Below are positions 1 through 41,448 of a stretch of 42,930 bases of DNA, in pieces. The translations under genes and the position numbers were made by a program. Under the pieces are notes generated by a model. It was not told the DNA's origin. It made no database searches and worked only from the letters and a program-made list of their open reading frames with translations. The first letter of the stretch is position 1; each line of letters begins with the position of its first letter. This DNA comes from a virus. The stretch spans positions 1 through 42,930 of the IMG/VR virus record IMGVR_UViG_3300030390_002222, one strand, 5' to 3'.

Positions 1-3000
1 ATGGTGTATCTCAAGCTGTACTTTCTCGTAATATTGAGAACTGGATGGAAGCTCATGGTACTTATGAATCATATAAGGCAGAGAAGTTAGGTCAAATAGA
101 CAATAAGACTGGAGAGAAATACACGGAAGAAGAGGCTAATAGGCTAGCAAGTACTGCAGCTGCAGATAACTGGAAGAAAGGTTGGGCTATGCTATTGCAA
201 GATATACCTCAATACTTAGCTATTGGAAAGATATTTGATCCTATCTCTAAAAAGATGGTAAAATCTATTGATGCTGCTTCAAAAAAAGGAATTGTTTCAA
301 AAATGAAACCTTGGCAAAAAAAAATAGTAAGTGGAGGAAAAACATTTGTTGGTGAAGGATTAGAAGAGAGCTATCAATACGTTATTGCTGAGCATGCTAA
401 ATTCAAAACTGATTTAGATTCAGGTTATATTACTGAAAAAGAGTATGAAAAAAAGATGTCTGATGCATACGGATCTGAAGATATGCTTACATCTGCATTT
501 TTTGGTGGACTTGGAGGTAATGTATTTCAAGCTACAGGCTCCAGGTTAAATGAAGTATTCAAGTCTAAAGATAGAAAAGAATATGAGAAGAAACTAGGGG
601 AAATGTACACTGATAATATCAACAACAAAGCTAAGCAGGTTGCATTAATGTTTCAGCACTTAAATAATGCTGATGATTCGGGTTCAAAAAACTTAAGAGA
701 AACTATTATAAATGAATCAATGCTTAATCTAACTTCTGATGCATTAGAGGCTGGTAAATTTGATCAGTTTTATGAAACTATTGGGTTAGTTTCTGAGATG
801 TCTGAAGAAGATTTAAAATCTTTCGAAGAAACAACTGGACAGGAATTCAGTGTAGATTTAGCTAAAGAATACGCACCTAAGATTCAAAAGAAAGCTATTG
901 AGATGCGTGATAGGTATTTTAAATACAGAAAAAGATACTCTGCACTTACTTCTTCAAAGTTATCAAGACTTGAAATGGAGAATAACTCTGTTGCTGATAT
1001 TGTAAATGAAAAGAATAAAGTAGTTGAAAATATAAAGAATAATATTGGTCAAGACTTTGACACGAATGCAAGTGATAGATTACGTATTAGACTTGACATA
1101 AGGGAGAGAGGTCAAGTATTAACAAAGAGAAAGAAAGAATTAAATAATAAGCTCATAGCAGAGACATCTGATGTAAAGAAGACATTCATAAAGGCGGCTA
1201 TTGAGAATAACGAGTTATTAATTAAAAAACAAAAAGCTGACGCTCAACAGCAAAAAGTAGATACTAAAAATAGAACTGCTGAACAAAAGAAGATTGATGA
1301 TCAAAAAATTGATAATGATAAAGCTGCAGAAAAGATATACAACAAGCTTCACAAGCAGGATATACTTGATGCGCTTGATATAGCCGCTCAAGGTAAAGAG
1401 CAGATTATCATAAATAATGAGGACATGGCGTTTGCCAAGACTAGTGAAGGAGCTAAACTTCAACAAGCTGAAAAACTTAGAAAGCAGATTGCTTCATATG
1501 ATCAAATTAAAGATAAGGCAGAAGCTATATCAGCTCTTAAAGAAGCTAAAGAGTCTTTGATTCCTAATGCAGATTACATCACTAATGCTCAAAAAGAAGA
1601 GGCAATTAAGAGTATTGATGATAAGATTCTTGAATATGAGAATCAAATAGGTGAAGCTAAGGCAACAAAACTTGCTGCAGAAACTGAAGCTAGATTAAAA
1701 GAGAAAAATAAAAAAAATAATGAGGATCCTACTGTAGAAAACAATCAGATTATAAAGGATATTGGTGATGTAATTGAGGATGAAAACTTTGAGGCTAATC
1801 CAGATACAACATATGCTCAGATAGAGTCTGCTGCAGAAGTAGATAGATCTAAAGCTGGTGATGGAAAATTATTAGCTCTACTTGATAAGGTAAACGGTAC
1901 TGAAGCTTATCAAAAATGGAATGAAAATCCTACAAGTAAAGTTGATAAAGAATTTAGATACACTGTGTCTGAAAGAACTGAAATGATAGATAAGGAACAA
2001 AATGATGCTATAGAGGCTTTTGAGAAGCTACCTAAAGATCAAGAAATTCCACAAATAATATATGACAACCTACCGATAAGGGCTACATTGAAAGATCACC
2101 CTGCTATTATGACATATTTACCACATAAACCATCTGATAAAACTCCGCTAGAAGACAGGGTGGCTTATCAGAAGGGGTATGCTGCTCAAAGAGTAATAAT
2201 TATAGACAAGCTTAGAAAAGGTGAGACTGTAACTTCAACTGTGGCTCTTAATACAGGTGGTGAATTAAATGTAGAAGAACATGATGATGATAGCATGTCA
2301 GTTCCTGAGAACTCTGTGCTGGACCTATTGCAAATTGGAAACATCATTTCTAATGTCAAGTTATTAATCACGGATAAATTTGGGTACCTTATGGACACAA
2401 ACAAGGAAACTGATACAGATCTTGGTTATAGACAAATCTTACTTCAAAATGATATTAAAGGTAATAAAATGCCTTATCGTGGAGGAATGTTCTTGAAAAT
2501 TAAAAAGGCTAATGGTGATCCATTTGCTTTAAGGTTGAACCTATTGAAGAATACTGAGGAACAAGCTCAGATATTAGCTGGGCTTTTAATTAGGCTTAGT
2601 GTACCAACTGCTCAGCGCGATAAGGAAGGTGTTGTTATTAAAAATGAGAAAGGCACTCAGGTAGTAAAGAAAGAGATAGAACCGGATTATAAGTTGTCTG
2701 ATTTAAGCGAAGATTTTAGAGAGGATGTTGAGAGAATAATGGGAACTGAAATTAAAATGCTAGATCCTAAACATCAAGATCCAAAGATTGCTGACTTAAT
2801 AAATTCGTTTGTATATTTTTCTAAAGAAACTGAGAATAAAACAACTGCACTACACTTTAGTGATGATAATAGATTAATATTTGGAAACGAAGGAGATGCT
2901 GTTACTCTTATAAATAGAGAAGATAATGATGTGTTTGATAAATTAGTTACATTCTTAACCACTAAAAAAAGAAGACAATTTAGCATCAACTTATGGAATA

Positions 3001-4544
3001 AAAGTGATGAATATAAAAAATATGTTCTTGAAAACAAAATCGTAAATACTGACGTTCCTACGGGTAAAGCGATGTTTACCAACCAAAGAAAAAGATGGGC
3101 TGGCAAAATGGGAGGTAGAAGAATACAGTTGTATATGAATCCCGTTAAGGTCAAATCTCAAGCTGGTGTAATTAAGGATAGCAAAGGAAATGAAACTTTA
3201 TCTAACCAATCTGAACAAGAGGGATTAGATGAGCCGCACGGATCTGTAATAGGATTGTCTTCATTGAAAAAAAGTATGGGATTACCTGCTGATAAGGCAG
3301 TTGAACAACCAACACAACAAAGTAATGATGATATTGTATTAAGTGAAGATATAGTTTTTAATAGCGCTATTGGCCAGCAAGTTGCTTGGGATTCATCCTC
3401 TAAAAGCTGGGTAAAAAAAATAGATGAAAGTATGTCTATATCTGAAGAAACTTCGTTTAAAAAAGATGGAGTTTCTTACTCATATGCAGACTGGATGCCT
3501 TCAGATCAACAATATCAAAAACAAGACTTATCAACAGGTAAGATTGTTACCAAAAACATAACTAAAAAAGAGTATGATGAAGCAAAAGGAAGTTTAGATG
3601 ACAACCGTTTTAGGGTAGAAGAGATTTCTTTTGAAGAAGCTAAAGAACTTTACGAATACTCTAAACTAGCACAACAAACTAGTGAGGTTGAAGGAAGTAT
3701 TAATGAAAATCTTAAGAAAATAATAAACAATGTTTACCCCGGATGGATAAATAGTAATAACAATCAAATTAGTCTTGCTGCTGAATTTAAAAGCATAAGC
3801 CTTCTTGCTCAAGAAGAAACACCAATTAAAGATAGGATTGCATTTGGTAAAGAAGCAGAAAACTTATTAAACGAAGTAAAAAAAGGTAAGAATCCTTTCA
3901 CTGAAGACACTACAGTAGAAGAGCAAATTCCAAATTTACTATATGCATACATAAGTGGAGAGTTAGCTAAAGATAATGTTTCTGAAAAAGATATGTATAA
4001 AAACATATTACAACAACCAACACAACAAAGTAGTGAGGTTGAAATTGAAGAGTATTTACGTAGAGAAGAGAATGATCATAATGGCAATAACTTAGAGATT
4101 CTAGCAAAAAAAGAGGGTGTTAGTGTAATGAAGATGGCTGAGGCTATCAAGAATACTATAGAGAGAAAAGAGTCTTTGGAGCTATCGAACACTCCTGACT
4201 TTGGATCTGCAGTACATTCTTTAAAGGTTGAAAGCACGGACACGTATTCAGCTAGATACTTAATGGATAACATTAAAAAAGAATTAGCTGCCTTAAATAT
4301 TAAAGAGTCACCTAGTGTTAGTGATGGTAATGTTAGGAATGCATCTAAAAAAGTTGTACCTTCCCCAAAATTAGCTACAAAAGAAGTAGTTAGTCAAACA
4401 TTTATAAACTTCGCTACAGAGGAAGAATACGAAGAAGAAGACTTTAGTGATGTTGAAGGAGATGATGTTATAACAACAAAGGATATCGCTAGTCTTGATA
4501 ATGGTGAGATAAAAACTAATTGTAAAAAAGTTAAAATTAAATAG
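1..4544 (+). CDS. Giant helical virion cargo/ejection protein, 5' end truncated by the window
   Basis: The reading frame is open from base 3 with no stop before the Met at 45, and the residues before that Met (GVSQAVLSRNIENW) look like ordinary coding sequence, so the true start lies upstream. At least 1,513 residues are present. The protein is highly charged, rich in Lys, Glu and Ala, with long predicted helical or coiled-coil stretches around residues 300-600 (numbered from the Met at 45). A small glycine-rich amphipathic segment (FFGGLGGNVF) lies near residue 155. The C-terminal third has repeated Gln/Thr/Ser linkers (QPTQQS). No enzymatic motif was recognised. It directly precedes the putative virion RNA polymerase and ends in TAG, six bases before the next ATG and in the same frame. 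By analogy with crAss-like phages it is probably packaged with the polymerase and delivered into the cell. The family assignment is inferred from size, composition and gene order only. Confidence 0.7.
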   Translation, partial: GVSQAVLSRNIENWMEAHGTYESYKAEKLGQIDNKTGEKYTEEEANRLASTAAADNWKKGWAMLLQDIPQYLAIGKIFDPISKKMVKSIDAASKKGIVSKMKPWQKKIVSGGKTFVGEGLEESYQYVIAEHAKFKTDLDSGYITEKEYEKKMSDAYGSEDMLTSAFFGGLGGNVFQATGSRLNEVFKSKDRKEYEKKLGEMYTDNINNKAKQVALMFQHLNNADDSGSKNLRETIINESMLNLTSDALEAGKFDQFYETIGLVSEMSEEDLKSFEETTGQEFSVDLAKEYAPKIQKKAIEMRDRYFKYRKRYSALTSSKLSRLEMENNSVADIVNEKNKVVENIKNNIGQDFDTNASDRLRIRLDIRERGQVLTKRKKELNNKLIAETSDVKKTFIKAAIENNELLIKKQKADAQQQKVDTKNRTAEQKKIDDQKIDNDKAAEKIYNKLHKQDILDALDIAAQGKEQIIINNEDMAFAKTSEGAKLQQAEKLRKQIASYDQIKDKAEAISALKEAKESLIPNADYITNAQKEEAIKSIDDKILEYENQIGEAKATKLAAETEARLKEKNKKNNEDPTVENNQIIKDIGDVIEDENFEANPDTTYAQIESAAEVDRSKAGDGKLLALLDKVNGTEAYQKWNENPTSKVDKEFRYTVSERTEMIDKEQNDAIEAFEKLPKDQEIPQIIYDNLPIRATLKDHPAIMTYLPHKPSDKTPLEDRVAYQKGYAAQRVIIIDKLRKGETVTSTVALNTGGELNVEEHDDDSMSVPENSVLDLLQIGNIISNVKLLITDKFGYLMDTNKETDTDLGYRQILLQNDIKGNKMPYRGGMFLKIKKANGDPFALRLNLLKNTEEQAQILAGLLIRLSVPTAQRDKEGVVIKNEKGTQVVKKEIEPDYKLSDLSEDFREDVERIMGTEIKMLDPKHQDPKIADLINSFVYFSKETENKTTALHFSDDNRLIFGNEGDAVTLINREDNDVFDKLVTFLTTKKRRQFSINLWNKSDEYKKYVLENKIVNTDVPTGKAMFTNQRKRWAGKMGGRRIQLYMNPVKVKSQAGVIKDSKGNETLSNQSEQEGLDEPHGSVIGLSSLKKSMGLPADKAVEQPTQQSNDDIVLSEDIVFNSAIGQQVAWDSSSKSWVKKIDESMSISEETSFKKDGVSYSYADWMPSDQQYQKQDLSTGKIVTKNITKKEYDEAKGSLDDNRFRVEEISFEEAKELYEYSKLAQQTSEVEGSINENLKKIINNVYPGWINSNNNQISLAAEFKSISLLAQEETPIKDRIAFGKEAENLLNEVKKGKNPFTEDTTVEEQIPNLLYAYISGELAKDNVSEKDMYKNILQQPTQQSSEVEIEEYLRREENDHNGNNLEILAKKEGVSVMKMAEAIKNTIERKESLELSNTPDFGSAVHSLKVESTDTYSARYLMDNIKKELAALNIKESPSVSDGNVRNASKKVVPSPKLATKEVVSQTFINFATEEEYEEEDFSDVEGDDVITTKDIASLDNGEIKTNCKKVKIK
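3304..4045 (+). repeat. Three direct repeats encoding Q/T/S linkers within the first giant gene
   Basis: A 21-base sequence is identical at 3304-3324 and 4012-4032. It encodes the linker QPTQQS. A related copy at 3671-3692 matches the stretch at 4024-4045 with one mismatch and encodes QQTSEVE. The copies separate segments of different sequence. This fits linkers between exchangeable or duplicated domains near the C-terminus. Confidence 0.75.
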
Positions 4545-4550
4545 ATAAAA

Positions 4551-7500
4551 ATGATAATTTGTAATGTAAACAACGAGGCAACTGGGAAAAAATCCGTATT
4601 GCACGCTGAATTACTTAAAGTTTTTAAAAATCAAAAAGAAGCTGACTTAATATATAAGAAAGTTAAAGGCAATGATTTTAAAGGAATTTTTGGTGACTGG
4701 GTGGCAAAATACAAGGGTAAATCAACAATTAAAACTGGAGAAACCTATTCCACTGGTGAGCCAAAACTAAAACTAAATAAAGGAACTAATCAACATTATT
4801 TTAAACTTCAAGATGGTACTAGTTTTTTTATAGACAAAAAGGGCTTAAGAGGAACTTTTACACCACGAGAAATTAAAGACATATCAAAGTATTTCTTATA
4901 CAGATACGTACAAGACGGTGGAATTGATTCATTTAATGACTATGATTCACTTAAGAATGAATCTAAGTTAATGAAAAGCATGGAAAAGGCCATGGATGAT
5001 TACATGGTTCAAGCATCCGGATTTAAGTCTGAAAAAGCTAGAATTGGATATTCTAAAAGAATGGACAGGATAAGGCTTCATAAAGAGGACTTTAAAAAAG
5101 AGCTTATTTATCAGCTTGATTCACTAGGTCAAAAGTTTATAGAAAATATAACTGATGCAGAGGGGAACCTTCTTGGGGAAGTAACAGAAGAAGACAAAGG
5201 TGGTGGAATTAATATTATTGAATCTATTAGAGTTAATACAAAGTCAACCGCTACAGTAAATACTAAGATATTCTTATCTCAATTAGAATCATCTGTAATA
5301 CAACCAGACGGAAGTTATAAGAAAGTTCCATCTAAGTACTTGAATACTCCTTCATTCGAAGATTTCAATGAAGTATGGGAAACACTGCAGCCATTATTGG
5401 CAGATAGAGTTGCTGTTCAATCTAATGAAGGTGTTATTTCAGCATATACAAATATGAGGGAAGTCATAGTTGGACTACAGGAAGTTAAACCTTGGGCTAA
5501 AGACCTATTAAATAAGCTTGACATACTTTATAAAGACAACAGTAACGGACGTTACAAGGTGTACGAATTCGTACAAGCATTCAACAAAAACAAACTAAAC
5601 TACTACGTTACTGAATTTAATTCGGCTAATTCTGGGTACACAATATACAATGCTACAGCTACTAACAGTAGAGAAAGCCAAATTTTAGACAGATGGGGAA
5701 TTAGATTCCAAGATAAATGGCTAGAAAATGGTAAACAAATCTATTTAAGTACAGATAAACTTAAAACAATCAAAGGAATAAGTGATAATATTGAGTATAT
5801 TTATAATGAATGGTTAGGGCTAATAGGTGCTGCTAATAAAAGCAATAATAGAGACTTAACAAACGAAGCATATGGATACGCTTCATCAAATTTGTTTAAA
5901 GAGCTTAGAAATTTGGGTGTATTTGGATTAAAAGATACAGATATTAATTCAATGATTCTTTTGGGTGGTGGTAACATAAATGAATTCAAGACAACTAAGG
6001 ATTTGTTTGAGGGAGTTATGCACATGATCAATGGAGATATTCTCAATGTTGATAAACAAGGTAATGGTGTTAAATTTATTGATGATGACGGCAATGGTAT
6101 TAATCCATTTAGATCTCAAAAGATGGTTAAGATGCTTGCAAAAGCTCAAGCCATGAGAGAGCTTGATATTGCTGAATCTACAATTCTTGCCAGTGGTGGT
6201 AAAACTTACTTCGCATATGCTAATCCAACATACATATCTAATAAGATAGCTGAATGGAAAAAAGATCCTAGTGAACTTATAGAATTATCTACTCAACCTA
6301 TTAATGCTAGTTCGCAATGGATTAATTACCTGTTGGCCAATCATATTAAAAATAATGATGCTCAGCAAAAAAAAATATCTCAACAAAGGCTTGATAAATT
6401 AGAATCCGGATTAGCTAGTTCATTTACATCTGTAGGTAAAGATGATGGTGTTGATAATACCGACATATCATTAGGTGATCAAATTAATGACAATCTCTCT
6501 AAATTACTTGGATCAAGACTTAATAAGGGAGTTTCCTACTTCCCCTCTATTATTGCTGCAGATAAATCAAGAAGGGTAGAATTCAAAGGTTTTGAATTGA
6601 TTGAATCAGGAATGCACGGTAGAAATACAGACGGTTCTACTCATATTCCACAACAAACTGTAGACATATTTGTTGACTACTTCGAAGATGAGTACAATAG
6701 AATGAGAATTGTAGCTGGAGAATTAGAGAGTTTACCTAAAAATAAAAGAATACAACACTACCATACTGGAGATATTAATGGATTAAAGTCTCAGTTATTT
6801 CCTGAACTAAGCCACGATGTACTTAAAGGGCCTCTTAGTAAGGCTTTATATAAAAATGGCTTACCAATAGACTCTAAAGGTATTCAAGGACTTGATAGCG
6901 TTCAGAGAGCCGCAGTATCTGTTGCTATAAAAAAATCTTTATTAGAGAGACATGCTGAAACTAAAGTTAAAATTGAAGCTCTAAATAGTCAGACTAAAAT
7001 GAACGCTAAGTTAATTAGATTTTACAAAAATAATGGCGGTATGGATGCTATGGTAGGAGATTACCTTGTTAATGGACTGGTATCTTCTATTGAATACACT
7101 AAAGTATTCTCAGGAGATCCTGCTTACTACAAGAATTTACCTGATTTAATTAAAAGAGTTCCTGCAACATATACTGATGGACTACAATTGGCTTTAGAAT
7201 CTAATGATGACATGAAGTTTAATATCGCTATTGTAGAAAATGTTCAAGTTACTTCTAAATATATACAAAAGATTAAGGACTCTATTAACGACAAGACTAT
7301 TGCGAAAGCATACGAGGCTGATTCAAGAGGCAAGGGCGGTGTAAACACTACTGATGCTCAAGCATGGATAACTCCAGAGAGATGGAAGTTTCTTAAGCAG
7401 AGACTTGGTCAATGGAGTAATCAACATGATATTGTTTACAATAAAATGAAAAATGGTAAGAATTTAGATGAGTCAAAAGGTGAGTTAAAACTTGCAGCAC

Positions 7501-10500
7501 AACCATTAAAGGGAGTGTATTTTGAAATCAATAATGGCGTTCCTACTTACTTGAAATATTCTCAGGCTGTACTTATACCACACATGGTAAAGGGTACTCC
7601 AATGGAGAAATTACTACATAAAATGACACATGATAAAGATGGTAATTATATAAAAAATGTTTCTAATCAAGTGCATGAAGTTATTACTGAAGATGGAATA
7701 AAAGTAGGTGCTATTAGTCCGACTAAAATAAATAAGGGTGAATCAACTGAAATGGCTGAAGATTTTGAATTAAACTCAAACACCATGAACAATAAAGGTT
7801 GGAAACTTCAACAAGATCTTCCTATTAAGTCAATGCATGAAACCAATCTAGGTTCTCAGATACAAAAGAACATTCTTGAAGGACTCGAGATATATGGTGA
7901 CTACAAGGTGTTTGGTGAAAAAGGCACAATAAAAGGAGAAGTGTTACTTCAAAAGGTTCACGATGCTATATCTGAATTAATAAATATTGGTGCTGAGGAA
8001 GTTGGTGAAAAACTCGGAATTGTTGGTGGAAAGATTAATGATAAATCTGAACTATATCAAGTTATGATTAGTGAGTTTAGGGAAAGAAGTGGTAATGAAA
8101 ATATCATTGCAGCTCTTGAAAAGCAAACTTCATTTGATGCTATTCCTCAGATTAGAGGAAGAATTGACAGTATATTAATGTCTGTATTTAACAGAGCTAT
8201 GACTAAAATCTCCACTGAAGGTGGATCTTTCATTCAAGTAAGTCCATTTGGATTAGAGACATTTAGTGACAAGTCTGGTATTATAAAGATATCTAACAAT
8301 TATGACGGTAAAGGATTACAGCCACCACATAGGGGGCCAGATGGTCAAACTGTTCCAGGACAAGTACTAATACCTCATACATTAGCTATGAAATTATTAG
8401 AACAATCTGATCAAAAACTAGAAGACATGACTCCTGCTAAATGGAAGAGAGCATTCGCGGGTAAAAAGACTAGAGAGCTAGTTGGATATAGAATTCCTAA
8501 CCAGGGGATGTCATCTAATGATACTCTTGAGATTGTAGGGATACTTCCTGAAACTATGGGAGATAGCATTATAGGTTATGACGCAATACCCGCAAAGACT
8601 GGTAGTGATTTTGATATTGATAAGATGTATGTTATGGCTCCAAATATGCTATACAACAAAAAATCAGAAAGATTTGAGCTACTTAATGACGAAAATAAAA
8701 AGTTCTACAAAGGGGGTAAAAATGTAAATAAGCTAATTGCTCAGAATACTGTATTGAATTTGTATTCAGATATACTTCAGAGTCCTCATACTTATGATAG
8801 AATGATGACATCTATTGATACAGATTTCTTAAAAAAGGATATTGATAAATTACATCCAAAAGGTGATGATAAGAATTTAGATTTATTCTCACCTATTACA
8901 CAATTGACAACTAAGATGAATTACATGTCTGGTAAAATGGGAGTTGCTCTTACTGCGAATCAATTAGTTGATCACGTAGCTAATCAATCTATTAACATAC
9001 AGGTAGATACTAACCTTGGGTTTCTTGATACTGTTTTGCAGGAGAAATATAACAAGACCCAAATGGATAAGTCAATGCCTGGAAAAAGAAGCATATCAGC
9101 AACACTTTCTTCATTCTTGAATGCGTATGTAGATATTGCTAAAGATCCTTATATTACAAGAGGTAATCATAATGACGTCACAGCTAATACAACATTCATG
9201 TTAATTAGAGCTGGAGTACCATTAGAGACTATCAACAGATACATTGGACAGCCAATATTAAAAGAATACGTTGAGCTCAAAAAGAGATCTGAGAGTATTA
9301 CAGCTGAGCCTCTTACTGTGGTAAATCCTGAAAATGGAACTTCAACCTTTGTGACGCCTGTAGAGTACTTAAAAAATAAGTACAATATAAAAGACTATGA
9401 TAAATCTCATTTAAAACTTAAAAGTATATCTGCAAAAGATATGGAGGCTAGTATTAAAGGGAATCGTAGTAAGTTTATTGACTCAGTAGTATTGAATGCA
9501 TTCATATTTCATGAAAAGAAAGCAGCTCAATGGACTGAAGCGGTACTTGCGGCAAAAATTGATACAAAAGGTGCCGGCGGGTCTCCAATAATGATGAATA
9601 TTGCTATCAATAAGATTGATAAAGTTAAAAGAATTGGATTTGTTTTAGGATACGAAAAGAAATTTGAAGGTACCGCATTAGGTACTTATGAAAATAAAGC
9701 ACTTGAGTTTACTAGGTCTGTGTTAAATAGAAGTGAAGTTGTGTTGTCAGGTACTGAAGATGCGGCTTACTTTATGAACACAGTGTCAGCTAAAATAACT
9801 AAAGAGCCAGCACTTGTGTCTGAGAAGCTAGGTAAAGCTATAGATAAAGGAATGTATGCTTACATGATGTCAGGTACAAAAATGATGAAAAGTAATAGAA
9901 ATAACTTTAAAACGTTATTTGAAAAATTACCTTTAAAGATTTCTGAAATGCAAAAGACTTCTAAAAACTTTCTTATAAAAGAGTTAGAGATTCAGATGAG
10001 AGGTAATTATAACTTCATTGGCGTAAATGCTAAAAACAAACCAGCGTTATATGAGAATGAAATATACAGAGCCTGGATGGACTTGTATGAAGATCCTAAC
10101 ACAAAGGATATTGCAGTTCGTTTAGTTAAGTACGCGTACTCTCAGTCAGGATTCAGCGCCAATCTTAACCAATTCTTTACGCATATTCCTCATGAAATAC
10201 TTAAAGATGAGGGAATAAATGCAGAAGTCAATGGGTTCTTTCAAAAAATGGGAGATATGGCTTCGGACGAGATATTTATAGATCAATTCTTGAGACATGA
10301 GTCTGATAATTCTGATGTAGTGCCTAGAGTTAATGCGCTTCAAGCTCAGGAGATTAGTGGCATATCAAAAGAACACGGATTTTCAGCTAGCAATAAATTC
10401 TTAGAAAAGTATAAGGTCATAAATGGTAAAGACCATTATTTCAATCCACCTCTATTTGTTACGACAGCTGAAGGACTTTACAAGCTTCACAACCTTGGAG

Positions 10501-10874
10501 ATGATTTTGAAAAAATACCTCCAATGTATGCTAGAACATATAAACTTGGATATAAAGCAGGTAAGAACAAAGTATTTGAATATTCTTATGATAACTCAAT
10601 AAAAAAGTCTATCTTGCCAGAGAATAATAAATTGTTTACGCAGGAATTCAAGAATGCAATATCTCAAGCAAAAAGAAAGATGGATCCTCTAGGTGCAGGT
10701 AATGATGTGAAAGCTAGTATTGAAATAAGTGCAAAAATGAATCCAGAGACAACAACAGCTGAAGAAGATATAAATGACAATACTAATATAGAGTATAAGC
10801 CATTTAAGTTGACTGCAGATATGTTAACTGAAGATATGTTAAAAAAATTAGGTATAACTACAAACGACTGTTAA
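4551..10874 (+). CDS. Virion-packaged single-chain DNA-dependent RNA polymerase (crAss-like type)
   Basis: A 2,107-residue protein. The segment TGSDFDIDKMYVM at about residues 1350-1362 carries a D-x-D-x-D triad (D1353, D1355, D1357). It resembles the metal-binding DxDGD loop of two-barrel RNA polymerases and the DFDID motif reported for the roughly 2,200-residue gp66 virion polymerase of Cellulophaga phage phi14:2. Length, motif position about two thirds along the chain, and location between two other giant genes all agree with that family. The expected role is to enter the host with the DNA and transcribe early genes before other polymerases act. The ATG follows an A-rich leader without a Shine-Dalgarno sequence. 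It is in frame with the upstream gene across one TAG. The second barrel's basic residues were not located with certainty. Confidence 0.85.
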   Translation: MIICNVNNEATGKKSVLHAELLKVFKNQKEADLIYKKVKGNDFKGIFGDWVAKYKGKSTIKTGETYSTGEPKLKLNKGTNQHYFKLQDGTSFFIDKKGLRGTFTPREIKDISKYFLYRYVQDGGIDSFNDYDSLKNESKLMKSMEKAMDDYMVQASGFKSEKARIGYSKRMDRIRLHKEDFKKELIYQLDSLGQKFIENITDAEGNLLGEVTEEDKGGGINIIESIRVNTKSTATVNTKIFLSQLESSVIQPDGSYKKVPSKYLNTPSFEDFNEVWETLQPLLADRVAVQSNEGVISAYTNMREVIVGLQEVKPWAKDLLNKLDILYKDNSNGRYKVYEFVQAFNKNKLNYYVTEFNSANSGYTIYNATATNSRESQILDRWGIRFQDKWLENGKQIYLSTDKLKTIKGISDNIEYIYNEWLGLIGAANKSNNRDLTNEAYGYASSNLFKELRNLGVFGLKDTDINSMILLGGGNINEFKTTKDLFEGVMHMINGDILNVDKQGNGVKFIDDDGNGINPFRSQKMVKMLAKAQAMRELDIAESTILASGGKTYFAYANPTYISNKIAEWKKDPSELIELSTQPINASSQWINYLLANHIKNNDAQQKKISQQRLDKLESGLASSFTSVGKDDGVDNTDISLGDQINDNLSKLLGSRLNKGVSYFPSIIAADKSRRVEFKGFELIESGMHGRNTDGSTHIPQQTVDIFVDYFEDEYNRMRIVAGELESLPKNKRIQHYHTGDINGLKSQLFPELSHDVLKGPLSKALYKNGLPIDSKGIQGLDSVQRAAVSVAIKKSLLERHAETKVKIEALNSQTKMNAKLIRFYKNNGGMDAMVGDYLVNGLVSSIEYTKVFSGDPAYYKNLPDLIKRVPATYTDGLQLALESNDDMKFNIAIVENVQVTSKYIQKIKDSINDKTIAKAYEADSRGKGGVNTTDAQAWITPERWKFLKQRLGQWSNQHDIVYNKMKNGKNLDESKGELKLAAQPLKGVYFEINNGVPTYLKYSQAVLIPHMVKGTPMEKLLHKMTHDKDGNYIKNVSNQVHEVITEDGIKVGAISPTKINKGESTEMAEDFELNSNTMNNKGWKLQQDLPIKSMHETNLGSQIQKNILEGLEIYGDYKVFGEKGTIKGEVLLQKVHDAISELINIGAEEVGEKLGIVGGKINDKSELYQVMISEFRERSGNENIIAALEKQTSFDAIPQIRGRIDSILMSVFNRAMTKISTEGGSFIQVSPFGLETFSDKSGIIKISNNYDGKGLQPPHRGPDGQTVPGQVLIPHTLAMKLLEQSDQKLEDMTPAKWKRAFAGKKTRELVGYRIPNQGMSSNDTLEIVGILPETMGDSIIGYDAIPAKTGSDFDIDKMYVMAPNMLYNKKSERFELLNDENKKFYKGGKNVNKLIAQNTVLNLYSDILQSPHTYDRMMTSIDTDFLKKDIDKLHPKGDDKNLDLFSPITQLTTKMNYMSGKMGVALTANQLVDHVANQSINIQVDTNLGFLDTVLQEKYNKTQMDKSMPGKRSISATLSSFLNAYVDIAKDPYITRGNHNDVTANTTFMLIRAGVPLETINRYIGQPILKEYVELKKRSESITAEPLTVVNPENGTSTFVTPVEYLKNKYNIKDYDKSHLKLKSISAKDMEASIKGNRSKFIDSVVLNAFIFHEKKAAQWTEAVLAAKIDTKGAGGSPIMMNIAINKIDKVKRIGFVLGYEKKFEGTALGTYENKALEFTRSVLNRSEVVLSGTEDAAYFMNTVSAKITKEPALVSEKLGKAIDKGMYAYMMSGTKMMKSNRNNFKTLFEKLPLKISEMQKTSKNFLIKELEIQMRGNYNFIGVNAKNKPALYENEIYRAWMDLYEDPNTKDIAVRLVKYAYSQSGFSANLNQFFTHIPHEILKDEGINAEVNGFFQKMGDMASDEIFIDQFLRHESDNSDVVPRVNALQAQEISGISKEHGFSASNKFLEKYKVINGKDHYFNPPLFVTTAEGLYKLHNLGDDFEKIPPMYARTYKLGYKAGKNKVFEYSYDNSIKKSILPENNKLFTQEFKNAISQAKRKMDPLGAGNDVKASIEISAKMNPETTTAEEDINDNTNIEYKPFKLTADMLTEDMLKKLGITTNDC

Positions 10875-10876
10875 TA

Positions 10877-13800
10877 ATGGCATGTAAATTTAATTATAAA
10901 GGAAAGGATTATACTGAGGCAGAACTAATAAAAGTTCTGTCTAGTGATCCAAAAATTGTAGAAGAGTATTTCCCTCAAGAAGAGAGAGCTAAAAGTGACT
11001 ACACAAAAGAAGATATTGAAATATTTAAAAATAAGGTTAAGATACTTCAGGATTCTATGAATGTTGAAGTTATTATGGATGACACTGTTGAGAGCTCTAG
11101 AGTTCTTGGCAAGGGTGATCAGAGAGTTAAAGATGCGGGTAGGCCTGTCATCTTGATAAATCCTGGCAAAATCTTTAAGACTACAGCTATTCATGAATTT
11201 GGACACATATTTGTTGACTCACTTCCGGGAGGTTTAGATAATCCTAGACTAAAGAGGGCTTTGGATATGCTAATGGGCACTGAATTAGAAGCGGAAGTTA
11301 GAGAGTTATATCCTGAATTAAATGAAGAGATGTTTGCAAAAGAACTAATCGTAACTGCTATTGGTAGAAAAGGTGCAGAGCTTTTTGATAGTCAAGATAA
11401 AGCAGGCATTTGGGAATCTATTAAAAACTGGTTTTTTAGTTTCATAAGTAGAAAATTTAATATATTCAATAAGGATGTAATAGAATCTCTTACTAGAGAC
11501 ATAATTGACAATAGAGTGAAGAAAACAAATCTTTATGAAGGTCTATCAGAGATGGATCAAGAAGAAAGGGTAAGAAAGATTGATAAGGAGGCGCAAGAAG
11601 AAAAAGTGGCTATAAAGTCTTTAGAAGCTGTATTTGAAGAGACTCTTGCCAGGGTGACTAATATTTATAATGAATACTTACCTGATACGCCTGATAAAAA
11701 GGAAAGAGAATCTCTTAATCAATTAGATGGCACCACTAGATTTCAATCTATTGAGGCGCTTAAAAATGAGTTAGATAAATTAGATGAGACTGATAAAAAG
11801 CTAGGTTTATCTAAATACATCCAGTGGGTTCGTGAAGAAATAGAAGAGGTGAATAGAATCGTTGATGATAGAAAGAAATTTGGTAATCTTACTGAAGATA
11901 ATGTTATTTCAAGTATAGAATGGAACCAAGGTTTCAGTATGGTTGAAGATATTCAGAGTCTAATAATAGGAATGAATGATGCTGGTGAATTGTCTGATAA
12001 AGACAAAAAGTATTACGAAAGAGTTCTTTCAAATGTACAAAAAGATAGATCTAAATTAGATGCCAAATTACTGCATGCTTCTCGGGAGGCATACGCAGAA
12101 TTCATGGCAGACAACGATAATAAAATAAAAACTGAATACACCAAAGGATTTGAAAGAGAATATGATGACTTAGATCTAAAAGCTTCAGGACAAAGTATTG
12201 ACTCTTACGTTATGGAGAAACTATTAGTAAACGCTGATGAAATTAGAAAAGTAGCATACAATGAGGCATTTGCAAATGCACAAAAGTCTGTGTCTGACAT
12301 ACATAAATTGGCAGCAACAATGTGGTCCGAGAAAAATGCAAATTCTCAAGACATTCAGGTGCTATCTACTCTAGTCGATTCAGTTGAGCAGCAGATTGCT
12401 GAATACGCTTTAACTCAAGCTAGAGAGTTTGACACAATGAACAAGCAATTTAAAAAGGATGTAAGCAATAATAATAATCAAAAAAAGAAGTATGAAAACA
12501 TGTTCACTACTTCTAAATCCGGACAGTCCTACTATGCATCTCAGTATAAGCCTGATTTCATGGAGAAAAGAAACGAGTTAATATCTGATGCATTCGATAG
12601 AGATAAGGCTGATGAAAAATATGGCGATGTAAAGGTTGATAGTTCTAAATTAAAATACACTATTAACGGCGTGACTAGATCTATTAGATTTGGTGATGCA
12701 ACCAGGTTCAAAGTAGATACCAATGAAGCAGGAGAATCTATTCAAATATCATATGTATTACTTGGGGAAAGAGAATATATCCCTACTTCAGAAGCTATAG
12801 CTAGATCTGAATATGAGTACTGGATAAAAGAAAACACTGAATCCATAGTAGTTAAAGGTAAAGATAATTGGGTTCCAAAACAGAAATGGATTAATAAAGA
12901 TTACAATAAAATGACTCCTAAACAGAAGTCTCATCTAGACTTCCTAAAAGGCAAAGTTAAAGACGCTGATAAATTATCAAAAGGAAAAGACACTTTGATC
13001 TCCAGGAGTTACAATCAGGAGTGGATTAGATTACCAGGAGTTTTAAAATCTGATGTTCAAAGGATAGTTGAAGGTGATTATCTAGGTGCAGTTAAGCATA
13101 AAGTGTCTGAGATAACATCTGTACAGGCAGATGATTACCAGACTCAAGAAAATAATAATACAACTAAAGAATCGTTTATAAGAGTATATGCTGACATTTC
13201 TAATAAAGAAAAGCTAAGAGTACCTATTTCATTTAGAAAGAAGCTATCTGAAGCTGATCAAAGTTTTGATTTACATACGATGACTTTAATGAATACTATT
13301 GCTGCTAAGAACTACGAAAAAAAGAAAGAAGTTGAGTCTACTTTTTTGATTGTATTAGAAGTAATGAAAAATAGAAAAGTGCCGGATAAGGCAGGGCTTA
13401 GGAGACTTACAAAAATTCATGCATTATCTAAAAAAGATAAAGAAGTTGAAATATTCAAGGACTTACGTGATGGGCTTCCAAATGATGGCAAGAAGGCACT
13501 TGATATGCTTCACAATAGAATGTATGACATCAAGAGTAAAGATGCGGGAAAAGTCAAGATAGCTGGCAAAGAAGCTGATGTTAATCAGTTGGCTAAGTCT
13601 TGGTTAAAGTATTCTGGTATGACGGCATTAGTTGGTAACTGGATAAATAGTACTGTGAATTTAAGTATGGGTACTATTAATAATTTTATTGAAGCTTCAG
13701 GTGGTGAACATTTTAATTTTAAAGACTGGGCTTATGCAAGTAAAGTTTACACAAAGGACGTTAGACACATTATGAATGATTGGGGGTCTAATGTAGATAA

Positions 13801-14902
13801 ATCAAGAACTAATATGTTTCTTAACACATTCAATGTAATGGGTGGTAAAGAGTATTTAGACAATAAGTTTGAAGAAAACACTAAAGGACAGGCATTAATG
13901 AAGATGAACTCTATGCGTCCAATTGCAAAAGCAGGTGAGCATATGATGCAATCTAAAGTTATGTACGCTACTATGCGTCACATTAGGGTGATGAATAAAA
14001 AAGGTGACTATATAGATATTGACGGCAATGTTGTTAAATCTAAAAAAGAAGCAGCGTCTTTGGACCAGATGATTACATTCGTGCCAACCACTGGGGGCGG
14101 AATAGAAATGAAGTTAAATGAAGCTGTGAAAGCTACGACTTTTACTAGAACTGGTGGTCAAGCCCAAATAATGCTGGAGACTAGAAATCTAATCAAGTAT
14201 AAGATCCGTGAACTACACGGTAATTATGATTCGGATTTACAAGCTGCAGCTCAAAGGGAATTTTGGGGTAAACTTACTTTTTTCCTACGTAAGTGGATTG
14301 AGGAAGGATATTTTAGAAGATGGAGAGGCACAGGAACTATGTTTACAAAAAATGAAGATATGCTAGAGGCAAATAGATTCTACTCTCAAGATGCTAAGGG
14401 CAATAGAGAAGGCTACTATGTCACTGCAATTAGATTTATGAGTAGAGTTATTGCTCCAGCTATTAGACAAATGAGTATTGAAATTATCAAAAAGGGTGCG
14501 GGTAATCTATCTACACATGAAAAGGCTAATCTTAAGAAAATAACTACAGAGCTAATGATTATAGCATTAAGCATGATTGCTTATATGTCATTTGAAGATG
14601 ATGAAGAAGAGGTTACAATGAAGTACATATTTAGGAGACAAATTTCAGAGCTTACTTTTTTTATGATTCCACAAGAGGCAATTAAAATAGTTTCGACACC
14701 TACTGCATCTGTTGGTACTTTAAGAAACGTTCTGAATCTTATGACTAAAGCAATGAATCCATATGAGACATACGAACAAGGACCTCATAAAGGTAGAAAT
14801 AAACTTACAGTATCAGCACTAAAGGCATTCCCTATTACGTCTCAGACAAATAAGGATATTAAAAGTGCTTTAGATTACCTAAATAATTCGGCAGGATTCT
14901 AA
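10877..14902 (+). CDS. Giant virion cargo protein with N-terminal zinc metallopeptidase-like motif
   Basis: A 1,341-residue protein starting two bases after the polymerase stop codon. Residues 105-110 read IHEFGH, an HExxH zinc site (H106, E107, H110). Downstream acidic residues in LNEEMFAKELIVTAIG (about 152-167) could supply the third ligand, as in gluzincins. The rest is mainly charged and helical. Near the C-terminus a hydrophobic stretch (ELMIIALSMIAYMSF) followed by an acidic cluster may be a membrane segment. Position last in the giant-gene cassette, before the terminator, suggests a co-packaged ejection protein. The peptidase might process cargo proteins or open the host envelope. Activity is inferred from one motif, and the third ligand is uncertain. 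Confidence 0.7.
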   Translation: MACKFNYKGKDYTEAELIKVLSSDPKIVEEYFPQEERAKSDYTKEDIEIFKNKVKILQDSMNVEVIMDDTVESSRVLGKGDQRVKDAGRPVILINPGKIFKTTAIHEFGHIFVDSLPGGLDNPRLKRALDMLMGTELEAEVRELYPELNEEMFAKELIVTAIGRKGAELFDSQDKAGIWESIKNWFFSFISRKFNIFNKDVIESLTRDIIDNRVKKTNLYEGLSEMDQEERVRKIDKEAQEEKVAIKSLEAVFEETLARVTNIYNEYLPDTPDKKERESLNQLDGTTRFQSIEALKNELDKLDETDKKLGLSKYIQWVREEIEEVNRIVDDRKKFGNLTEDNVISSIEWNQGFSMVEDIQSLIIGMNDAGELSDKDKKYYERVLSNVQKDRSKLDAKLLHASREAYAEFMADNDNKIKTEYTKGFEREYDDLDLKASGQSIDSYVMEKLLVNADEIRKVAYNEAFANAQKSVSDIHKLAATMWSEKNANSQDIQVLSTLVDSVEQQIAEYALTQAREFDTMNKQFKKDVSNNNNQKKKYENMFTTSKSGQSYYASQYKPDFMEKRNELISDAFDRDKADEKYGDVKVDSSKLKYTINGVTRSIRFGDATRFKVDTNEAGESIQISYVLLGEREYIPTSEAIARSEYEYWIKENTESIVVKGKDNWVPKQKWINKDYNKMTPKQKSHLDFLKGKVKDADKLSKGKDTLISRSYNQEWIRLPGVLKSDVQRIVEGDYLGAVKHKVSEITSVQADDYQTQENNNTTKESFIRVYADISNKEKLRVPISFRKKLSEADQSFDLHTMTLMNTIAAKNYEKKKEVESTFLIVLEVMKNRKVPDKAGLRRLTKIHALSKKDKEVEIFKDLRDGLPNDGKKALDMLHNRMYDIKSKDAGKVKIAGKEADVNQLAKSWLKYSGMTALVGNWINSTVNLSMGTINNFIEASGGEHFNFKDWAYASKVYTKDVRHIMNDWGSNVDKSRTNMFLNTFNVMGGKEYLDNKFEENTKGQALMKMNSMRPIAKAGEHMMQSKVMYATMRHIRVMNKKGDYIDIDGNVVKSKKEAASLDQMITFVPTTGGGIEMKLNEAVKATTFTRTGGQAQIMLETRNLIKYKIRELHGNYDSDLQAAAQREFWGKLTFFLRKWIEEGYFRRWRGTGTMFTKNEDMLEANRFYSQDAKGNREGYYVTAIRFMSRVIAPAIRQMSIEIIKKGAGNLSTHEKANLKKITTELMIIALSMIAYMSFEDDEEEVTMKYIFRRQISELTFFMIPQEAIKIVSTPTASVGTLRNVLNLMTKAMNPYETYEQGPHKGRNKLTVSALKAFPITSQTNKDIKSALDYLNNSAGF

Positions 14903-36475: not shown

Positions 36476-36758
36476 GCTTCTGTCTATAACTAAATGCTTG
36501 AGTTATCGCTTCTAGAATAGTAGATCCATAAAATGGTTTTAGCTCATCTGTTATAGGTTTATCCTCAACGGTGTGGCGATCAGTTCTTGAATCAATAAGC
36601 ATAAATCTTTGTTTGTCATCCTCAAAGCATGTGGTTGATATTGAATACGTAGGATCATAAGAATCAGCATTTCTACCGTGCTTTGTAAAATCCTTATTCA
36701 AAATAGCCAACATTTCGTCAACACTATAAGTTTTTTTGACTCTTCTTTTTAAGCCCAT
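36468..36758 (-). CDS. Hypothetical protein, 96 aa
   Basis: Not recognised. Starts with a basic segment (GLKRRVKKTYSVDEM), followed by a mixed alpha/beta stretch (CFEDDKQRFMLIDSRTDR). It overlaps the SF2 helicase at its 5' end by ten bases and the next gene at its 3' end by eight bases, so it is tightly coupled to the replication genes on both sides. Confidence 0.6.
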   Translation of the reverse strand: MGLKRRVKKTYSVDEMLAILNKDFTKHGRNADSYDPTYSISTTCFEDDKQRFMLIDSRTDRHTVEDKPITDELKPFYGSTILEAITQAFSYRQKHG

Positions 36759-38005
36759 GTTATATATTTTTTATTAAAATTATCCATTGATTTATTGAAG
36801 TACACCATATCCTGAGTGTCTTGAACTACAAGTAAATGCATTTCAGGAAATTCATATCTAAGGCATCTTCCTAACATTTGAAAAAAGGAACCAATCTTGC
36901 TATCTAATTGTGTGATTATTCCTTTCTCAATCTGAGTAAGGTTTACACCTTCTCTTAACATCTTTACTGCAAAAAGTTCGTTACACTCTAATCTATTAAA
37001 ACAATCAATTAACTCATCGTTAACATCATTGTTGTTATTAGAGTGTACAGAACTACCTGATCCTATATCCTCAACCTGCTTAATAGATCCTGTAAAGCAG
37101 ATAAATCTAGACTTACTAATTCTAAACTCTTCTACTAGGTCTTTAACTTTTTGAGTCTTAACTTCAGCTAAGAATTTCTTCCTAGTTGAGGCTATATTAA
37201 GATACTTATTTCTACAACCTGTCCTAATTGGAAAAGGGATGGTCAAGTCTTGACTTAGATCATAATAATAAGACATTTGCTTAGTTAAAGCATCATAATG
37301 CTCCTGCTCTGTACCCTGACATATTACACTAAAATCTTTAGGTGTATTCTTCATGGTCATATACATCATCTTGTGACTACATCTTACAACCCTACCTTTA
37401 ATTTCACCTTTAGATTTCCTTGCCATAAACTCCCATAGCTTACCATTAACGATACTTTTATTTAATTGTATCTTATGGACTATAAGTTCTGGCTCAGGTA
37501 GTAATTTAAGCTCAAATGCTCTATTCAGCGGGATTATATCATAATGAACTTTTTTACATAGCGTATTCATTAATACCTTCTTATCGTCGGGAATAGTAGC
37601 AGATAGAAATATTATCCTGGTGCCTTTTTTAAGTATATTTCTTAATGCTTTTATCCTTAATGGAGTTAGAGCATGACATTCATCTAATAACACAAAATCA
37701 GCCTTCTTTTTTTGATTCTTAAGAGATGCATATAATATACTTTTCATTGATTTACTAACTTGAACCATATTGTGCTTCTCAATCTCTTTTTTCCAGCTCT
37801 TTTTATGTGTGCTCTCCTTGCATATAAGATATCCTACTGCTTCAGGATTCTCTTCTAAAAATCCTTCTACAATCTTTAATGCTCCAAGTGTCTTGCCAGT
37901 TCCCGTTGACCATTCAAGGCACAAGAATCTATGCTTCTTACTTAAACTTAGAGCATTAGATTGTATTTTGTCTTTAGGACTGACCACTACCTTTTCTACT
38001 ATCAA
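36749..38005 (-). CDS. Superfamily 2 DEAD/DEAH-type helicase
   Basis: A 418-residue SF2 helicase. Motif I is STGTGKT (residues 33-39), motif II is DECH (108-111) and motif III is SAT (135-137). In the second RecA-like domain, MLREGVNL is motif V and FQMLGRCLRYE is motif VI with its arginine fingers. It would remodel branched DNA or DNA-protein complexes during replication. The ATG chosen overlaps the upstream gene by 32 bases; a GTG seven codons downstream is an alternative. Confidence 0.9.
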   Translation of the reverse strand: MIVEKVVVSPKDKIQSNALSLSKKHRFLCLEWSTGTGKTLGALKIVEGFLEENPEAVGYLICKESTHKKSWKKEIEKHNMVQVSKSMKSILYASLKNQKKKADFVLLDECHALTPLRIKALRNILKKGTRIIFLSATIPDDKKVLMNTLCKKVHYDIIPLNRAFELKLLPEPELIVHKIQLNKSIVNGKLWEFMARKSKGEIKGRVVRCSHKMMYMTMKNTPKDFSVICQGTEQEHYDALTKQMSYYYDLSQDLTIPFPIRTGCRNKYLNIASTRKKFLAEVKTQKVKDLVEEFRISKSRFICFTGSIKQVEDIGSGSSVHSNNNNDVNDELIDCFNRLECNELFAVKMLREGVNLTQIEKGIITQLDSKIGSFFQMLGRCLRYEFPEMHLLVVQDTQDMVYFNKSMDNFNKKYITWA

Positions 38006-39702: not shown

Positions 39703-40170
39703 TTAATTTGTTGCTTTTATTATTTGAGACACTGTGTAAGTTCCTGTAGTTGTTCCGTCAGTATAATATTCAGATTGTCTTAATCTGATTTTTTCTACAA
39801 CCTTAGTTATTAAAGGACTATTAAAGTCTATCCTAAATAAAGAAGGCATAGAGTCTGAACAATCTATATCTGATAAATCATCACGCAATTCTATTTTAGT
39901 ACCATCTGTAAATTTAAATATAACGTAATTTCCAGATGCTCCGGAACAACCTAAGTCACTAGTTGATTTTATCTTTATGTAATAAAAATTATTTATCCTT
40001 AATGCCGATAATTTTAGTATGCCTGTACTTGTTTTTGCGACATTGTAATAGTTTGTAAACTTCTTTACGTCTCCTGTAAAATCATCTACTTCATTTTTCC
40101 ATAATTTTTGGCCACTCATTGATACTGTTGTCAATAATACTACTAATAATGTAAATAATACTTTTTTCAT
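39703..40170 (-). CDS. Secreted or periplasmic protein with signal peptide, 155 aa
   Basis: Residues 1-20 (KKVLFTLLVVLLTTVSMSG) are a signal peptide, probably cut after Ser-Gly. The mature part is beta-rich with two cysteines that could form a disulfide (CSGASG, DIDCSDSM). An ATG nine codons further upstream is less likely because it adds a charged stretch before the signal. No domain was recognised. With the lipoprotein next to it, it forms an exported pair that may change the host envelope. Confidence 0.75.
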   Translation of the reverse strand: MKKVLFTLLVVLLTTVSMSGQKLWKNEVDDFTGDVKKFTNYYNVAKTSTGILKLSALRINNFYYIKIKSTSDLGCSGASGNYVIFKFTDGTKIELRDDLSDIDCSDSMPSLFRIDFNSPLITKVVEKIRLRQSEYYTDGTTTGTYTVSQIIKATN

Positions 40171-40235
40171 CTTTATTTGTTTTTTAATTAACACTGTTTT
40201 TACTATTATACTATTTTGTTACTTTTTGTTACTAA

Positions 40236-40634
40236 TTATATCTTTCTAAATGTTTCAAAAGCTACTCCATCAATGTAATTTACTTTAATATCTCCATTAC
40301 TTAAAGGTTCTATTATATATTGAAGTTCATCATTTTGAAACATCTCATCTCCAATTATCTCCCCAACCTCTTCATCGTAAGGTACATTATAATTTGGACA
40401 CTCACATGCGTTATATATCCAAGTCCATACTCCATCTTCAATTACCAATCCAACCTCTACTTGACTACCATCTGTAGCTTGTGGATACAATACATAATAA
40501 CCATTATCTTGTTTCACACTATATGAAACTCTTTTATAATCTCCATCGAGCTGTCCAACTCCTAAGTTATCATCTTGCTCACAACTTGTCAACCCTAAAG
40601 TCAACAATAATACTAGTAATAATACTTTCTTCAT
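40236..40634 (-). CDS. Lipoprotein, possible surface-exposed, 132 aa
   Basis: Residues 1-17 are a signal peptide with lipobox GLTSC, so C18 should be lipidated. The residues after it (CEQDDN) are acidic, and acidic residues just after the lipid-bearing Cys act as surface-export signals in Bacteroidota. The mature part is beta-rich, with two neighbouring cysteines (ACECPN). Phage-encoded surface lipoproteins often block superinfecting phages, which is a plausible but untested role here. Confidence 0.75.
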   Translation of the reverse strand: MKKVLLLVLLLTLGLTSCEQDDNLGVGQLDGDYKRVSYSVKQDNGYYVLYPQATDGSQVEVGLVIEDGVWTWIYNACECPNYNVPYDEEVGEIIGDEMFQNDELQYIIEPLSNGDIKVNYIDGVAFETFRKI

Positions 40635-40667
40635 ACTTAATTGTTTATTTGTTTTGCTTACCTATTT

Positions 40668-41083
40668 GTAGAGTTGTCAGCTTAATTCTCTTTTGTTTAA
40701 ATAAGATAATAGCCGGCTTTATCTCCCACTTAACATGCGGGACACACACAGTCGGCGTTTATACTGTTGGCTTTAATTATCTTATAGTTTTGAGCACCTT
40801 GGTAGGCTTTAAGCCTTACGAGCACTCTACTGTTACTCGGTGAGCCTATTAGGCGTTAAGTAACAAGAATGTAAATGAACCACCATATAAAAAGCAACTT
40901 CAAAATATGAAGACTTGATATGATGAGTCATTAAAACTTGTGACATGTTATTCTGTGGGACGGCAATTCGGGAATTCCTACTTTTGCAACCACAGCACAT
41001 CACATAGATTAAAGTATTAATAAAAGCTATAAACTACTATAGATTGCGCACATTTAATGTGTATCACTCTCTATATTATATAG
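40668..41083. ncRNA. Candidate structured noncoding RNA
   Basis: This 500-base gap between coding genes is visibly richer in G and C than its AT-rich flanks and is dense in stems. GTAGAGT (40668-40674) pairs with ACTCTAC (40824-40830). TAAGATAATAGCC (40702-40714) pairs with GGCT plus ATTATCTTA (40769-40784). There is a 7-bp hairpin at 40802-40819, and TGTTACT (40831-40837) pairs with AGTAACA (40859-40865) around a GCCT/AGGC hairpin. Further stems are at 40898-40912, 40953-40995 (CTGTGG/CCACAG), 41027-41042, 41049-41061 and 41071-41083. Strand and boundaries are uncertain. No tRNA or known RNA family was recognised. Confidence 0.6.
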
Positions 41084-41145
41084 TCACTAAATCTATAAAT
41101 ATTCTCCCCCTACGGCAATTGTTTTATTTATATTAATACCAATTT

Positions 41146-41448
41146 TTAAATGATTAATCTTTTATTTTTTCTCCTAAATAAAGATGAAGCTCTCTTTTTA
41201 TACATCTTTCTTTTAGACTTTATACAACCTCTAGATTTTAGAGTTATTCCAGAATATCCATTTTCAAACCTGTAATAGATGTTGTTAGCTTTTTTAACAT
41301 CTTCATCTGATATAACAAAATCTGTTAAATGCAACCTATTTGGTTTGATTAATCTTGATTCAGGCTTTAGGTCATCACTACACAACACTATATATTTACT
41401 AGCATTAAACTTAGGAAGCCCATAGTAAGCATATTTTCTAAAAACCAT
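41146..41448 (-). CDS. Hypothetical basic protein, 100 aa
   Basis: Not recognised. A basic protein with a short N-terminal domain (KYAYYGLPKFNASKYIVLCSDDL). The C-terminal tail is strongly Lys/Arg-rich (KSKRKMYKKRASSLFRRK), suggesting nucleic-acid binding. It overlaps the upstream DnaA-domain-IV-like gene by one base, and the candidate RNA lies directly downstream. Confidence 0.6.
   Translation of the reverse strand: MVFRKYAYYGLPKFNASKYIVLCSDDLKPESRLIKPNRLHLTDFVISDEDVKKANNIYYRFENGYSGITLKSRGCIKSKRKMYKKRASSLFRRKNKRLII

Follow-up and report, generated by a model that had tools for sequence, protein, structure and literature searches.

The window, by which is meant the whole 42,930-nt stretch of virus record IMGVR_UViG_3300030390_002222 that was analysed, carries near its end a gap between two minus-strand genes (40236-40634 and 41146-41448), in which the initial annotation had placed a possible large structured noncoding RNA of phage (40668-41083). 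Two small proteins are encoded 3' of the RNA (39703-40634, minus strand), and the product of the gene nearer to it, P0001 (40236-40634), is short and lipoprotein-like; for the small proteins adjoining the RNA no known family was found. In the whole window no tRNA, tmRNA or Rfam family was found. At its opposite end, positions 45-14902 of the plus strand are occupied by ORFs of 1499, 2107 and 1341 aa, all three very long, and the middle one has no PHROG match.

Since the adjoining small proteins belong to no known family, the search for relatives started from the helicase gene at 36749-38005. In two of the 26 contigs recovered a homologous stretch is present, with the helicase about 2 to 2.8 kb downstream: L005, with 80% identity to the window over 232 nt, and L016, which has diverged from the window with its motif order unchanged. 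A further 23 records of helicase relatives, many of them fragments, gave no match.

Local GC content is raised, as had been noted earlier (0.33-0.36, against 0.22-0.30 in most flanking windows), and the repeats and stems listed in the initial annotation are found in the window at the positions given there. Compared with shuffled sequence, the folding signal is modest over the whole 511-nt stretch (z -2.1 on the plus strand and -2.8 on the minus strand) and clear for minus-strand positions 41000-40695 (z -4.4). The proposal of a structured phage noncoding RNA thus holds as to its nature, but its strand is minus and not plus, and neither its extent nor its outer helix was borne out. Homology backs only about 40870-40699 (minus strand) of the roughly 500 bases proposed, and no similarity to L005 was found in the window beyond 40872, which leaves the other half of the flagged stretch unsupported. 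The two sequences of the supposed closing helix, GTAGAGT (40668-40674) and ACTCTAC (40824-40830), are present but lie outside the conserved helix P1 described below, and no counterpart of the partner of ACTCTAC is visible 3' of the element in L005 and L016. The ACGGCAATT nonamer does occur at 40960-40968 and 41112-41120, but these two copies lie outside the conserved unit, in a part without detected homologue. The proposed pairing of TGTTACT (40831-40837) with AGTAACA (40859-40865) is supported by the relatives and corresponds to hairpin A in Table 1.

Core architecture and 5' extension

Minus-strand positions 40787-40699 of the window are a compact conserved RNA made of helices P1, P2 and P3 and near-invariant joints (Table 1). 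Across the family these joints are AAGCCA, AAUAAAACCG, GUG and AAAGCCGG, and about 25 unpaired bases are near-invariant. The P3 segment folds with at least two pairs in 67 of the 71 distinct members, most of these folds being weak individually, and its length differences are not multiples of three.

Table 1. Positions in the window of the core RNA and of the 5' extension found in window-type phages.
Feature	Position	Strand	Basis
Core (P1, P2, P3 and junctions)	40699-40787	-	Covariance model, 68.6 bits, E 9e-15
P1 5' strand, AUAAGAUAAU	40776-40785	-	10/10 complementary to 40701-40710; columns covary in 53 sequences
P1 3' strand, AUUAUCUUAU	40701-40710	-	Complementarity and covariation
Joint AAGCCA, near-invariant	40768-40773	-	Alignment of 53 members
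P2 5' strand, ACAGU	40763-40767	-	Pairs with 40748-40752; family-wide covariation
P2 3' strand, ACUGU	40748-40752	-	Alignment and covariation
GCCG, end of P2 loop, proposed pseudoknot strand	40753-40756	-	Faces CGGC 40712-40715
CGGC, proposed pseudoknot 3' strand	40712-40715	-	Partner of GCCG 40753-40756
P3 hairpin segment (UCCC / GGGA)	40721-40744	-	Variable hairpin in 67/71 distinct members
Joint AAAGCCGG, near-invariant	40713-40720	-	Alignment of 53 members; one search anchor
Hairpin A (UGUUACU / AGUAACA)	40831-40865	-	Different-sequence hairpins in the same place in L005 and L016; by eye, three sequences
Shared motif CAGUAGAG	40825-40832	-	Identical in window, L005 and L016
Hairpin B, overlapping GAG of CAGUAGAG	40792-40827	-	Near-identical in L005, shorter in L016

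The window, L005 and L016 share an additional 5' domain, in which hairpin A, CAGUAGAG and hairpin B follow one another before the core; with it the RNA measures about 170 bases. In these phages the RNA lies just upstream of a gene whose product is small and either lipoprotein-like or secreted: the position of P0001 is taken in L005 by a short counterpart that ends similarly (AFETF), and in L016 by a gene for a secreted protein. At locus L162, the element comes after a large structured intergenic stretch (10180-10430; z -3.5 over 411 nt) that has TACCAAGGTGCT in common with hairpin B of the window and is possibly a longer version of the RNA.

Distribution and covariation

The pattern taken from L005, L016 and the window consists of a closing helix, AAGCCAACAGTA, CCGACTGTGTG, a hairpin, AAAGCCGG and again the closing helix; scanning with part of it sufficed to find further phages. 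The first family pattern returned mostly chance matches, from which true members were chosen by the AAGCC and AAAGCCGG joints; with P2 left free, the pattern matched at least 120 viral stretches, a few of them by chance. The covariance model, built together with the pair counts on an alignment of 53 members, scores 68.6 bits at 40787-40699 (minus strand) in the window, a score that is not independent of the model because the window is one of its 53 source sequences; the next best match in the window reaches 11.7 bits. Besides the window it matches 118 fetched loci (76 + 42), some of them near-identical, and the element recurs in more than 100 uncultivated phage sequences. In 40 whole records, the longest of 198 kb, there is exactly one confident copy each (E <= 0.001), to which a looser cut-off added one marginal match of 14.7 bits in G011.

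By blastn, no copy was found in 50,697 annotated phage records, which suggests why the class has been overlooked, and the covariance model found no copy in two UvsX relatives. The closest annotated relative by UvsX, Microcystis phage Mel-JY01, has no copy, and its uvsX lies 8 nt from the preceding annotated gene. Model scans of 7 bacterial genomes and of 295 genomes of one Bacteroidota class, both run without a positive control, gave no copy. A pattern with a specific P2 matched genome contigs 45 times, but the flanking joints were absent on reading and none was therefore accepted. An exact 16-mer from the window gave two matches with otherwise no homology between them, and P0003 as query returned no relatives.

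The compensatory base changes in homologues that the initial annotation had named as a check were found, and are strong, in P1 and P2. All nine model pairs of P1 and all five pairs of P2 have changed on both sides among the 53 members, 93.6% of the P1 and P2 cells are paired, and the covariation score of 0.704 compares with 0.178 in shuffled controls and with a maximum of 0.175 when partners are slid. P1 and P2 of the proposed new class are thus supported by compensatory change. In the same two helices G-U cells outnumber A-C cells (36 vs 8), which points to an RNA on the minus strand.

A pseudoknot between CCG at the end of the P2 loop and CGG is likely. Both triplets are invariant among the 53 members, largely as a consequence of the search pattern, which prescribed them. 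When a first base other than C was demanded and the 5' half kept, no site was found. The pair flanking CCG/CGG differs compatibly, being G-C in the window and A-U in L005.

Genomic context and promoter-like sites

Context was surveyed at 101 sites (100 fetched loci and the window), with gp32 and nuclease genes named from PHROGs and other genes by sequence reading. The gap between gp32 and uvsX holds the element at 36 of these sites, the distance being 4-15 nt to the preceding gp32 stop codon and about 3-21 nt to uvsX. Other neighbours are ThiS-like/E2-like, JAB-like, ThiF-like, helicase or nuclease genes, some copies lying after helicase genes, and 42 of the 101 sites have no neighbour from the named gene groups. 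The element is optional, including at the gp32-uvsX junction.

In large phages the element lies inside tRNA islands, often directly after tmRNA and tRNA-Met. The island tRNA-Met, of which the first bases were read, mostly begins with C, a mark of initiator tRNAs, and is thus initiator-like as far as these first bases indicate. GOLLD follows downstream of the element at 11 of 13 island loci and at L213. Islands such as L222, L249 and L286 hold about 24 to 26 predicted tRNA/tmRNA genes per locus, and include tmRNA, initiator-like tRNA-Met and GOLLD.

Among 79 distinct loci, 15 have a promoter-like site of the TTTGG...TATCTTTG type whose end is 0-13 nt from the start of P1, and the argument for it is this fixed distance. 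This TTTGG...TAnnTTTG type of site is one that we take to be a Bacteroidota-type promoter. Given where the site ends, the RNA at these loci probably starts there as its own transcript. Several loci have a second promoter-like stretch 3' of the element. For most members, which lie within operons, no dedicated promoter was seen; the window shows no promoter of the TTTGG...TAnnTTTG type directly before P1, and a run of U directly 3' of the element is present in few members.

Comparison with known RNAs and candidate roles

No Rfam family covers the stretch, in agreement with the initial annotation, which had recognised no known RNA in it. Rfam 15 (4227 families) gave no match at the gathering cut-off over the element in the window and further members, and at E 10 only chance matches over window positions 40400-41300; the best relaxed match, CsrC with 27.4 bits (cut-off 61) around the element in L224, is at chance level. 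The open-access PMC papers searched contained no earlier description. Measured against Rfam 15 and this literature, the element is a previously unclassified RNA class.

Of the two phage RNAs suggested earlier, GOLLD can be set aside for the window, where the model of its conserved 3' domain (RF02032) is unmatched, and ROOL has no match there at the gathering score, nor at E 10 in 40400-41300. GOLLD resembles the element in being a structured phage RNA of tRNA islands and adjoins it in 12 loci, but it exceeds 800 nt, against about 90 nt for the element, and is a separate downstream stretch, with a promoter-like stretch between and no sequence match to the element. ROOL is likewise a phage RNA near tRNA islands (PMC12286853), but is far larger. 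The tmRNA shares islands with the element as a neighbour and is a separate RNA, the element having no tRNA-like or mRNA-like part. The species 1 and 2 RNAs of T4 (rnaC/rnaD) are also small stable RNAs in the tRNA cluster of a T4-like phage; they are set aside as well, since the covariance model has no convincing match in that cluster, its best score of 11.3 bits falling inside a protein gene.

The minus-strand RNA of the window is best read, with a probability of roughly 55%, as a member of a new class of accessory, trans-acting small RNAs kept by many tailed phages. Such an RNA would either have a promoter of its own or be processed from a longer transcript, and would act in trans, its near-invariant junction binding a widely conserved partner. 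Our best guess for this target is a part of the translation apparatus, because in large phages the neighbours of the element are phage tmRNA, initiator-like tRNA and GOLLD; this link is one of gene neighbourhood, and only one part of the family shows it. Ribosome binding in pull-downs is described for GOLLD, as cited in PMC12286853, and bears on that neighbour only. More tentatively, the optional, single-copy RNA, carried between unrelated genes by T4-like and other phages, might work in trans with phage tmRNA, initiator tRNA and GOLLD in the takeover of host translation or in shielding from host defence.

A cis-acting intercistronic element, which would stabilise or process the upstream mRNA (e.g. 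of gp32) or gate downstream translation, would suit the gap between two same-strand genes, such as gp32 and uvsX, that forms most of the protein-coding contexts. The neighbouring genes nevertheless differ and are unrelated between phages, and one copy per record is unusual for a general processing signal. Island copies have a promoter-like site before them and another such stretch or an RNA gene after them, so that there is no gene for them to control, and the promoter-like sites before P1 and after the element make a cis role hardly the general one; we consider it rather doubtful. The absence of a downstream gene in the islands, and of a shared one across loci, also makes a metabolite-binding riboswitch improbable, even though the compact junction, invariant joints and variable closing P1 recall many aptamers. 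Known small ribozymes have a build similar to that of the element in size, three helices, likely pseudoknot and some 25 near-invariant unpaired bases, so that a new self-cleaving class, small, pseudoknotted and with a highly conserved junction, deserves mention. It is unlikely, as Rfam ribozyme families are unmatched, the sequence gives no pointer to a cleavage site, and the 5' end at promoter-driven loci is already set by transcription.

That the hairpins work as DNA, in an origin or packaging site, would agree with the single copy per record, but is very improbable in view of the excess of G-U over A-C pairs and of promoter-like sites directed into the element. A chance fold or a piece of coding region, to which the partial overlap of the element with a spurious plus-strand ORF (40481-40843) might point, can practically be dismissed: compensatory changes across unrelated contexts refute a chance fold, and P3 varies in length by non-multiples of three.

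Phages have so far yielded few classes of structured RNA, and what GOLLD and ROOL do is still open. The trans-acting RNA proposed here is small enough for routine biochemistry and has a strictly covarying core, and its copies beside GOLLD, with their own promoter-like site, offer a handle on the role of those RNA islands. Two further stretches occur in the islands. One, the short conserved AUAGGYRAUGAAAGAUACUC, lies between the element and GOLLD, at most about 300 nt from the element (L214, L249, L262, L209, L222, L230, L293, L299 and L223); it has complementary ends and usually its own promoter-like site, and is possibly another unclassified small RNA. The other, AAGATTCA..AAATAAAGTAGTTGATTGG..GAATCTTT, is short, lies in the same islands (L213 1430-1510, L216 and L269), and also has complementary ends and its own promoter-like site.
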